A DNA stretch of 64,000 bases from Desulfobaccales bacterium. Its GTDB lineage: Bacteria > Desulfobacterota > Desulfobaccia > Desulfobaccales > 0-14-0-80-60-11. Numbering within the stretch: the first letter of the stretch is position 1; the number at the start of each line of letters is the position of its first letter. The translations under genes were made by a program, and so were the position numbers. The notes below the pieces were generated by a model. That model saw nothing but the letters and a program-made list of their open reading frames with translations, was not told the origin of the DNA and ran no database searches. The stretch spans positions 1-64,000 of the forward strand of contig JBBFLF010000004.1 in NCBI GenBank assembly GCA_037481655.1, in the 5' to 3' direction. Shown here piece by piece: positions 1 through 6,144 of this stretch.

Positions 1-636
1 CCTCCCGAACCCGCCCCGGCCCGGCCTGCCGCCGCCCCTGCCACGCCCTACGACCTGGAGCGGGACCCCCAGGTGCAACACCTCCTTTCCCGCTGCCCGG
101 CCCTGCGGGAGGTGGTGGCCCGCCTCAGCCGCACCGGCACCGTCTCCCGGGACGAAACCCAGGTCCTCATCCACACCCTGGGCCACCTGGACCACGGCCC
201 CCAGGCGGTGAACGAGCTCTTCCAGCGCTGCACCAACGCCGACCCCGCCCTCTTCCTCAAATCCCGCCTCAAGGGCCACCCCATGAGCTGCCCCAAAATC
301 CGCCACCGCCTGCCCGAACTCACCCAGGCCGTGGACTGCTCCTGCACCTTCGACCTCACCTCCAACCTCTACCCCACCCCCCTGCTGCACCTCCAGTCCC
401 TGGGCCACCCCACCCCCCTGGGCCTCACCCTGGACTCCACCCGCTTCCAGACCCTCCTTTCCGACTACCTCAAACTCCGCCAGCAACTCCGGGAAATGGA
501 ACAGCTCCGCCAACGCTACGAGGAACAACTGGCCCAGGTCTTTAAGGACGCCGGCGTCTCCGAACTCAAAACCCCCGTGGGCACCCTGCGCCTCAAAACC
601 GATAACGGCCGTCTTATTTTTGTCCTGGAGTTCTGA
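1..636 (+). CDS. CRISPR-associated primase-polymerase-like protein, C-terminal part (5' truncated by window)
   Basis: The frame is open from base 1 to a TGA at 634-636, so only the last 211 residues are seen. After a Pro/Ala-rich linker (residues 1-16) comes a helical region with five cysteines, at residues 32, 77, 97, 113 and 115; the last two form DCSC. This spacing, with the surrounding LREVV, HTLGHL, NADP and MSCPKIR segments, resembles the PriL-like Fe-S domain found at the C-terminus of CRISPR-associated primase-polymerases (CAPP). A coiled-coil tail follows (about 155-185). It lies 153 bp upstream of cas1 on the same strand, which fits an adaptation-linked role. The catalytic Prim-Pol domain would lie left of the window, so the family call is a recollection-based inference. 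Confidence 0.7.
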   Translation, partial: PPEPAPARPAAAPATPYDLERDPQVQHLLSRCPALREVVARLSRTGTVSRDETQVLIHTLGHLDHGPQAVNELFQRCTNADPALFLKSRLKGHPMSCPKIRHRLPELTQAVDCSCTFDLTSNLYPTPLLHLQSLGHPTPLGLTLDSTRFQTLLSDYLKLRQQLREMEQLRQRYEEQLAQVFKDAGVSELKTPVGTLRLKTDNGRLIFVLEF

Positions 637-2119: not shown

Positions 2120-2403
2120 GATGCCAAAAAACCCTTGACACTCACACGCCTGCCATATTACAAGGGAGAAAAGCCCCGGTGGCTATTCACAATGTCACAT
2201 ATGCGGGGATCTCCGGGCCCAAAGCTAAGTGGTTGAAATCCTTAGGTGGGGGGTCAATCATCCCCGCATCGGCAACTATATGGAATCATTGGCAAAATTT
2301 CATTTTGGCGAAAATGCCTCCCGGGGTTGGGGGGGTGGGGGGGGTGGGATCCCCGTTTTTGCCCCCGGAAAGCCGCGTGGCCTGCGGGCCCCAGGGGGCA
2401 GGG
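2120..2403 (+). promoter_or_regulatory. CRISPR leader
   Basis: This 284-bp non-coding stretch separates cas2 from the first repeat. It includes TTGACA at 2135-2140 with TATTAC at 2156-2161 (15-bp spacing) as a possible promoter, and a G-run at 2329-2347. Leader polarity is supported by the far end of the array, where the last repeat is degenerate. Confidence concerns its identity as the leader, not the promoter detail. Confidence 0.75.
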
Positions 2404-5400
2404 GTAGGAATCCTTGACCCGATTAGAGGGGATTGCGACCCTACCCGCACCAGGGGTTTTGATTGATTTCCTCGTAGGAATCCTTGACCCGATTAGAGGG
2501 GATTGCGACTTGGTTTTGAATTTGACGGCGAAATACATGGCAACCTGTAGGAATCCTTGACCCGATTAGAGGGGATTGCGACTTGATAGCTTCCTGCTCT
2601 TTGAGGTCCGACATAAGTGTGTAGGAATCCTTGACCCGATTAGAGGGGATTGCGACTCAACTCTGGTTTGCTAAACTTCTGGCGTAAAAGGTACGTAGGA
2701 ATCCTTGACCCGATTAGAGGGGATTGCGACCTAAACCCGGGAGTACCGGGCCACGGCGCTTTAGCAGTTTCTCCGTAGGAATCCTTGACCCGATTAGAGG
2801 GGATTGCGACCAGTAAGGCGTTTCCCTTTGCCTCAACCTTATAACGTTCGTAGGAATCCTTGACCCGATTAGAGGGGATTGCGACCTACCAGGGTTGATG
2901 TCCATCCACAGCCACACCTGAAAGTAGGAATCCTTGACCCGATTAGAGGGGATTGCGACCTAAGCTCCTGGTAGAGGTACCTAATGGCATCCTCTTCCGT
3001 AGGAATCCTTGACCCGATTAGAGGGGATTGCGACCGGGATGCGGCTCTAGTGGAAGCTGCATAATGTCATCGGGTAGGAATCCTTGACCCGATTAGAGGG
3101 GATTGCGACCGACTAACTGCCCGGATGGGTTAGTTAGCCCATCCGTGTAGGAATCCTTGACCCGATTAGAGGGGATTGCGACTTCAATCCCACACCGTTT
3201 GCAGTGCCACTTACTCATTTCGTAGGAATCCTTGACCCGATTAGAGGGGATTGCGACTCGGAGGACGAGTAGAAAAATTTTATGAACCCTTCCTTTTCGT
3301 AGGAATCCTTGACCCGATTAGAGGGGATTGCGACACAGGTGATGTGCTAGTTCGTGCAGGGTGGATATTATTGTAGGAATCCTTGACCCGATTAGAGGGG
3401 ATTGCGACCCAGCGTATCCTCATGGCTTGACCTCCGGCGGCAGGTAAGTAGGAATCCTTGACCCGATTAGAGGGGATTGCGACTCTCCACGAACGCGAAC
3501 AAGCGGCCGAGAATATCGGCCGTAGGAATCCTTGACCCGATTAGAGGGGATTGCGACAAAGTTCCCTTCCCCTCACAGGCATAGCAAGTTTCGTAGGAAT
3601 CCTTGACCCGATTAGAGGGGATTGCGACTAATCCAGAGTTCATCAGCCTTTTTCATCGCCCTTCTCCGTAGGAATCCTTGACCCGATTAGAGGGGATTGC
3701 GACATGGCCAGGTGTGCCGCAAGACACGTACTTTTTCCGAGTAGGAATCCTTGACCCGATTAGAGGGGATTGCGACGAAAATGACCATCACCCCAGCCCC
3801 TAAAACAGGGCTAGGGTAGGAATCCTTGACCCGATTAGAGGGGATTGCGACGTGAATGCCTCCAGGGACTGGGTAGAAGTTGGAGAGAGTAGGAATCCTT
3901 GACCCGATTAGAGGGGATTGCGACCTTATCCGTCATCTTATCGAAAGGTGCCGTCAACTTTAGTAGGAATCCTTGACCCGATTAGAGGGGATTGCGACCG
4001 TGGATTATGCATCCACACCCAAACACCACCATCACCCGTAGGAATCCTTGACCCGATTAGAGGGGATTGCGACCTGATGATCATCCGCACCAGCCATGGT
4101 AGGTCTTCATGTAGGAATCCTTGACCCGATTAGAGGGGATTGCGACACGAAACATACTCCTCAAACCACAAACCACCAGGGATACGTAGGAATCCTTGAC
4201 CCGATTAGAGGGGATTGCGACCAGGACGAAGGCGTCCAGGGCCTTGAAGGCTTCCTGCTCGTAGGAATCCTTGACCCGATTAGAGGGGATTGCGACTTCA
4301 TCCCACAATTCCAACATCTTGTGCAATCTTTCTTCGTAGGAATCCTTGACCCGATTAGAGGGGATTGCGACCACACAGGGCAACAGCCATCATCAAGATC
4401 GGGGTAATGGGTAGGAATCCTTGACCCGATTAGAGGGGATTGCGACCAGTTAGCGCAGAGCCAGCGGACCAGCACGCCGTAATCGGTAGGAATCCTTGAC
4501 CCGATTAGAGGGGATTGCGACCAATAGACCTGCACCAGACAATCAGGGTCGCACAGACCGTAGGAATCCTTGACCCGATTAGAGGGGATTGCGACTCCAA
4601 CCGCTCCACCTTAACCCGACGGAGTTCAAACCGTAGGAATCCTTGACCCGATTAGAGGGGATTGCGACCTACCAGGACGCGACACTGGCCATCCTTGTGC
4701 CGCACGTAGGAATCCTTGGCCCGATTAGAGGGGATTGCGACTAATCAATCGGCCGTTTTTGTCTTGACGGCATACCGTCAGTAGGAATCCTTGACCCGAT
4801 TAGAGGGGATTGCGACCTGAAGGTGTGGACGCCAACTTGCTTCACCCATTCAAGTAGGAATCCTTGACCCGATTAGAGGGGATTGCGACGGCGGCACAAA
4901 GGAAATATCCCGCCCAGAAAGACACGTAGGAATCCTTGACCCGATTAGAGGGGATTGCGACCAAACTTACGCATGGTACCTTTGGGCATAACAGCCTCCT
5001 TTGTAGGAATCCTTGACCCGATTAGAGGGGATTGCGACAACTTTTCCGCAATCTTTTCCACGATTTCCGACTTCCCTGGTAGGAATCCTTGACCCGATTA
5101 GAGGGGATTGCGACTTTTTCAAGATTGCGTTGTAACGATTCCCGAAGCCGGCTGTAGGAATCCTTGACCCGATTAGAGGGGATTGCGACCAATGGGGAAG
5201 CGTCGATCCCCACCCTGGTGAAGAGGCGTAGGAATCCTTGACCCGATTAGAGGGGATTGCGACTTTTTCAAGATTGCGTTGTAACGATTCCCGAAGCCGG
5301 CTGTAGGAATCCTTGACCCGATGAGAGGGGATTGCGACATAACGGCCTGGGCTTGTAGCTGTAATTATGCACTACCAGTAGGAATCCTTGACCCGATTAG

Positions 5401-6144
5401 AGGGGATTGCGACTCTTGGCGGCCCGATACCAGGCGCCCTGCACCTGATTGTAGGAATCCTTGACCCGATTAGAGGGGATTGCGACCCCATAGGGGCCGG
5501 TGTAGTAAGATGACATATTGGGTAGGAATCCTTGACCCGATTAGAGGGGATTGCGACCCGCCGGCACCCACTCAATAACCTCTTTTTTGATGATTGTAGG
5601 AATCCTTGACCCGATTAGAGGGGATTGCGACCCAAAGGGGCAGCCCTTCATCTACGCGGCTGGCCAAGTAGGAATCCTTGACCCGATTAGAGGGGATTGC
5701 GACGTTGCCCCACGCAGCATCCTGATGTTGCGGGAGAGTAGGAATCCTTGACCCGATTAGAGGGGATTGCGACTGTTGCGGGAGAACCCAGCAGCACGGC
5801 CGAGGGTTTCCGTAGGAATCCTTGACCCGATTAGAGGGGATTGCGACGAGGTACAGGCGGAGGGCCGCACAACCCTCCACCAGGTAGGAATCCTTGACCC
5901 GATTAGAGGGGATTGCGACCTTCTTGAGTTAGGTCTGGGGTGGGTGGCTTTTTTTTCTTGTAGGAATCCTTGACCCGATTAGAGGGGATTGCGACATAAA
6001 AAACCGGAGGGTCTTCGCTGGTGTCAATTACTCCGTAGGAATCCTTGACCCGATTAGAGGGGATTGCGACACTTCAACGACTTCATTCTTTTGAAAGGAA
6101 GAGGTATCGTAGGAATACTTGACCCGATGAGAGGGGACCGCCAC
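2404..6144 (+). CRISPR. CRISPR array, 51 repeats and 50 spacers
   Basis: A 36-bp repeat beginning GTAGGAATCC and ending GGATTGCGAC occurs 51 times with 34-44 bp spacers, mostly 37-39. AATCC (6-10) and GGATT (27-31) can form a short stem. Variant repeats are at 4706-4741 (A14 to G), 5303-5338 (T21 to G) and the strongly diverged terminal copy 6109-6144. Leader-side cas genes and a decayed distal repeat imply left-to-right transcription with an AUUGCGAC 5' handle, similar to AUUGAAAC handles of type I/III arrays. One spacer occurs twice (5115-5153 and 5264-5302). The spacers at 5704-5737 and 5774-5811 overlap by 12 nt. No spacer-free decay is seen, so the array looks active. Confidence 0.99.

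Follow-up and report, generated by a model that had tools for sequence, protein, structure and literature searches.

The window analysed here, the first 64 kb of contig C4 in a 2.87-Mb genome of 50 contigs, begins within a primase-polymerase gene and continues on the same strand through cas1, cas2, a leader and a long CRISPR array. The features of the locus discussed below are as follows:

Contig C6, L044:13826-14998: 5' part of the CAPP (CRISPR-associated primase-polymerase) gene, the last open reading frame (ORF) of that contig
1-636, plus strand: 3' part of the CAPP gene, truncated by the contig start
790-1836, plus strand: cas1 (Pfam PF01867, 315 bits)
1838-2119 (ORF as listed; ATG at 1844), plus strand: cas2 (Pfam PF09827, 91 bits)
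2120-2403, plus strand: array leader, conserved up to the first repeat between this array and the second one (on contig C6)
2404-6144, plus strand: CRISPR array, 51 repeats GTAGGAATCCTTGACCCGATTAGAGGGGATTGCGAC (36 nt each) and 50 spacers (34-44 nt)
6109-6144, plus strand: degenerate distal repeat with 5 mismatches, marking the old end of the array

The gene that the initial annotation had called primase-polymerase-like is a CAPP: the PADLOC PrimPol profile matches it over profile positions 348-477 of 490 in the window part and 4-326 of 490 in the C6 part. Because both parts form one frame of 622-722 aa, followed directly by cas1 and cas2, in 11 relatives, contigs C6 and C4, which have no sequence overlap, most likely join within the CAPP gene. 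A PrimPol domain adjoining cas1-cas2 in a type III locus, the mark of a CAPP of the TPR class, is what we find here, and the N-terminal part, read by eye, has an FDLDL motif near residue 244 and TPR-like helical pairs. The C-terminal part (window positions 73-633) also carries a Mu_Gam/Sipho_Gp157-like domain (PF22709, 49 bits) named for TOTE conflict systems. No reverse transcriptase (RT) was found fused to or beside cas1, the frame of which is Cas_Cas1 only, with PrimPol and cas2 as the next genes, and a cas1 scan of the genome_contigs collection gave no match.

Before the CAPP 5' part, contig C6 carries on the same strand, in order, a second array (same repeat, related leader), cas6, a CARF7-family gene, cas10, csm2, csm3, csm4, csm5 and a csx1-type CARF-HEPN gene; the second array thus lies just before cas6, and the window array lies after cas2. 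Cas10 matches PADLOC Cas10a (368 bits) and Pfam Csm1_B, with HD at residue 22 and GGDD at 683, and csm2 to csm5 lie within one operon (L044 8903-12550). This gene set identifies the locus as a complete type III-A (Csm) CRISPR-Cas system with its own CAPP-Cas1-Cas2 adaptation module and two arrays: it comprises cas10/csm1, a csm2-csm5 operon and an array linked to the effector operon through the probable C6/C4 junction. An RNA-targeting type III effector, one of the settings in which the initial annotation had said that crRNAs complementary to mRNA are expected, is therefore encoded at the locus, and the GGDD motif and CARF proteins predict, by analogy, RNA cleavage and cyclic oligoadenylate signalling. 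The CARF7-family protein (L044 5136-6248), encoded between cas6 and cas10, belongs to the RelE/DUF2103 group and, together with Csx1, gives the locus two candidate cyclic-oligoadenylate effectors. The same genome also has one I-C and one I-E system.

Read from the anatomy of the array, the crRNA strand is the plus strand, because the left leader is conserved (84% mean column identity between the leaders of the window and C6 arrays, with the first repeat counted in the alignment), the last repeat on the right has degenerated, and an 8-nt handle, ATTGCGAC, forms the 3' end of the repeat. The first two grounds are those on which a plus-strand transcript had originally been proposed, and the handle adds a third; ATTGAAAC is the typical end of type I and type III repeats, and ATTGCGAC is a variant of it (PMC8482600). 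Spacer 39 (5264-5302) has the same sequence as spacer 37 (5115-5153), although the spacer that separates the two differs, which leaves 49 unique spacers. The repeat after spacer 39 has a T-to-G change that is also present in the distal repeat.

The initial annotation had claimed that nearly all of these spacers are antisense to coding sequence, and the four minus-strand peptides that it quoted are encoded where it had placed them, on that strand. We trained a codon model on the ORFs of lambda, Mu, P2, P23-45 and CF74a, scored each spacer as coding on the minus versus the plus strand, and calibrated the result with held-out phage genes, which give mean scores of 0.72-1.24 when read fully antisense. 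The 49 unique window spacers have a mean score (minus strand less plus strand) of 1.05 ± 0.22, with 78% positive (sign-flip p = 1e-5), and a maximum-likelihood antisense fraction of 0.999 (95% interval 0.83-1.0); with six other training sets, the window and C6 array spacers together score 0.81-1.08. Composition-preserving shuffles average -0.07 ± 0.27, and none of 500 reaches the window value, so that the two checks proposed with the claim, comparison with shuffles and codon scoring of both strands, agree on a minus-strand excess. Openness of frames had rightly been called weak evidence: every one of the 49 unique spacers is open on the minus strand and every one is open on the plus strand too, although open minus frames number 100 versus 83.9 ± 4.9 in shuffles, compared with 94 versus 93.0 ± 4.8 for plus frames. 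Start-codon contexts, offered as a further ground, are few here (5 SD-ATG contexts on the minus strand versus 1 on the plus strand in this genome's arrays, not significant alone); a minus-strand excess does appear when type III arrays are pooled (58:20, versus 54:48 in I-C arrays). The strand bias is real: essentially all window spacers are antisense to coding sequence, with target strands assigned by statistics for all but spacer 13.

We then compared, within the same phylum, arrays beside CAPP genes, arrays beside cas10 without CAPP, and I-C arrays as controls. The CAPP group (35 arrays, 856 spacers) scores 0.88 ± 0.06, with a maximum-likelihood antisense fraction of 0.87 (0.82-0.91) on a scale where an all-antisense truth reads 0.83-0.98; once GC is matched, the scores of CAPP arrays amount to most or all of what fully antisense spacers should give. 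Where neither PrimPol nor RT is nearby, type III arrays (15 arrays, 431 spacers) score 0.78 ± 0.09, or 0.87 ± 0.09 without the outlier L146; the first 14 array-yielding genomes of this group have no RT or CAPP-like gene near the array, and the later-added array L209 stands outside that profile check, its genome having no listed match in the protein search. The I-C arrays (17 arrays, 1192 spacers) score 0.00 ± 0.05. Since the bias occurs with and without CAPP and is absent in I-C arrays, it goes with type III and not with CAPP. The purine fraction of the crRNA strand is 0.448 in CAPP arrays, 0.441 in non-CAPP type III arrays and 0.502 in I-C arrays. The outlier, L146 18-2305 (G320), is linked to cas10, lacks antisense bias and has repeats that end unusually, in ACTGAAAT; it may be part of a different system, or its direction may have been assigned wrongly.

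Spacers that overlap one another within one array give a view of strand that is independent of the codon model. Of 20 such pairs in CAPP arrays, 17 share a strand, as do all 3 in the other type III arrays, which gives a same-to-opposite ratio of 20:3 for type III (p = 5e-4) versus 7:5 for I-C. Likewise, high-scoring pairs of similar spacers from type III arrays mostly match as minus-minus peptides, and their differences fall mainly on third codon positions; one pair, KKYVSCGTPGH versus KKYVSCGEIGH, spans the two arrays of this genome. Spacers drawn from overlapping sites on the same strand are in some cases direct neighbours (45/46 here; 88/89 and 95/96 in L073; 6/7 in L195), and overlapping neighbours are apparently commoner than random order predicts, as would be the case if one fragment or hotspot had supplied successive captures. 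The individual window spacers that bear on targets are:

3335-3372, minus strand: spacer 13, encoding IISTLHELAHHL, with a likely diverged protospacer in a viral metalloprotease gene
3704-3740, minus strand: spacer 18, RKKYVSCGTPGH, homologous to C6 spacer 7 (KKYVSCGEIGH), with 2/2/4 differences by codon position
4297-4335, minus strand: spacer 26, EERLHKMLELWDE
5704-5811, minus strand: spacers 45 and 46, overlapping by 12 nt on the same strand; the combined target of 60 nt is open in a minus frame, ETLGRAAGFSRNIRMLRGA

The protospacer search that had been proposed as a check was run against phages, plasmids, relatives and IMG/VR, and produced a single likely protospacer, that of spacer 13, which is antisense as predicted, and none for the other spacers. 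The match lies in IMGVR_UViG_3300033145_002224 (35 of 38 nt by hand count; 34 of 36 by blastn), in a 157-residue metalloprotease-like ORF (phrog_87, E = 8e-4) of a 101-kb viral contig, and its mismatches are synonymous. On a rough estimate, chance is very unlikely to produce such codon-level identity, but a conserved motif had guided the choice of the search pattern. The 3.6 kb examined of this contig are 31% GC; the true target is therefore probably not this virus but a related one. In IMG/VR, eight scans using degenerate codon patterns gave a nucleotide-level match for spacer 13 only, and the KKYVSCG pattern had no match in the viral_contigs and genome_contigs collections. No convincing protospacer was found for the window spacers in the phage (50,697 records) and plasmid (72,556) collections, nor any protospacer among phages for the 90- and 96-spacer arrays of L072 and L073; searches of all spacers against the genomes of 99 relatives gave, outside the array itself, short chance-like matches only, and this genome contains no convincing self-target. 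For spacer 26, a KMFELWDE-like motif read in the same frame occurs in viral ORFs of 116-122 aa; with identity of 20-28 of 39 nt, these ORFs were rejected as protospacers and are motif relatives at most; a spacer 17 match (KKADELWI) was likewise rejected, being at the peptide level only (18 of 39 nt). The antisense orientation of crRNAs to transcripts that characterizes type III-A systems is thus seen here in the statistical strand tests and in one likely protospacer.

It is highly improbable that base composition or chance alone produces the codon signal, with no real strand bias behind it. Frame openness by itself does barely separate the strands, and the count of spacers with no open frame is unequal between strands even in I-C arrays (5 against 19), but the composition-preserving shuffles never reach 1.05, the I-C arrays score zero under identical code, and neither the strands of overlapping spacers nor the synonymous differences within pairs depend on the codon model. 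We would be no less surprised if the array ran the opposite way, making the crRNAs sense: the leader conserved between two arrays, the decayed distal repeat on the right and the handle-like sequence that closes the repeat agree on the plus strand, and sense guides would be unusable by type III effectors.

The reading that we favor, to which we assign a probability of about 0.82 as a whole, is that of a III-A locus with crRNAs complementary to phage mRNAs and a bias produced by the fixation of protective spacers. Read rightward from the leader, the crRNAs would pair with phage mRNAs; the Csm complex with Cas10 would bind these mRNAs and, if it behaves like the type III-A systems studied so far, make cyclic oligoadenylates that activate CARF7 and Csx1, the two CARF proteins of the locus. 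With an effector of type III-A, antisense crRNAs would therefore be required: a spacer in the opposite orientation would yield a guide unable to pair with the mRNA, and hence no protection. Capture itself may have little or no strand bias, with subsequent fixation of protective spacers giving the near-complete antisense bias. We infer both the Csm biochemistry and the role of selection, the latter being favored because capture in an RT-less Thermus type III system is unbiased, with the bias made by selection (PMC7515739), because published CAPPs prefer DNA templates, with poor synthesis and no efficient priming on RNA (PMC8211822), and because even RT-Cas1 systems have only a marginal orientation preference (PMC5576922). 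A preference of type III systems for targeting mRNA across genomes is also described by Vink et al. 2021 (PMC8482600).

If selection acted after unbiased capture, the newest spacers should be antisense less often than older ones, unless selection on each fixed spacer was immediate. In non-CAPP type III arrays the bias does rise with spacer age, from 0.47 at ranks 1-5 to 1.15 at ranks 16 and above (within-array permutation p = 0.02), whereas CAPP arrays, to which the window array belongs, are flat with age (0.89 at ranks 1-5, 0.94 at 6-15, 0.86 at 16 and above; p = 0.5), which counts against selection. This contrast, together with the position of the CAPP gene immediately before cas1-cas2 and the existence of the neighbouring spacers from overlapping same-strand sites noted above, speaks for a different cause, in which CAPP-Cas1-Cas2 would take spacers from transcripts or the transcribed region and insert them in functional orientation, so that bias precedes selection. 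We nevertheless consider this unlikely. An equally strong bias is seen without CAPP, the age-trend difference between the groups is not significant (interaction 0.19, 95% interval -0.11 to 0.53), the later-added CAPP arrays alone score 0.65 in the first five spacers versus 0.84 in the rest, and the cited behavior of CAPPs on RNA templates and of RT-Cas1 systems argues the same way. The initial annotation's suggestion of polymerase-assisted capture from transcripts is accordingly not supported, with scores of 0.78 ± 0.09 without PrimPol or RT against 0.88 ± 0.06 with PrimPol. We are equally doubtful of a division in which CAPP modules orient spacers at capture or insertion, with bias from the newest spacer on, and systems without CAPP or RT acquire theirs via selection over time. 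Because the age difference was noticed among several exploratory splits and is unclear in the later-added CAPP arrays, it is a lead only; we did not find such a profile, flat with CAPP and rising without, reported in the accessible sections of PMC8482600 or PMC7515739.

The strand bias of type III is extended here to CAPP-bearing systems, and a role of CAPP in spacer orientation becomes directly testable, according to whether or not the bias is present in fresh spacers. Codon statistics and overlapping spacers also allow spacer strand to be tested without a known target, which is useful for arrays without mapped protospacers.

The strand bias itself is already known for type III systems, where it is attributed to selection, and the pattern is mostly expected. 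It resembles the bias described by Vink et al. 2021 (PMC8482600) and Artamonova et al. 2020 (PMC7515739), in which crRNAs pair with mRNA, RT-less type III systems included; unlike those cases, it is seen here without mapped protospacers and in CAPP-bearing arrays, with an age profile that is flat in CAPP arrays and rising in the others. Like the Marinomonas RT-Cas1 type III system (PMC5576922), the locus has an adaptation module that could touch RNA, but there is no RT among the genes searched here, and new Marinomonas spacers are only marginally biased to the functional orientation. The locus is also like the CAPP-Cas1-Cas2 modules of type III-A and III-B systems (Zabrady et al. 2021, PMC8211822), with which it shares a PrimPol gene directly before cas1-cas2; judged by eye, the N-terminal part of the protein may have the TPR-like character and the DxD motif of those CAPPs too. 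Unlike them, it has the Mu_Gam/TOTE-type domain PF22709 in its C-terminal part. As a whole, the locus adds a new case of a type III-A system with CAPP.
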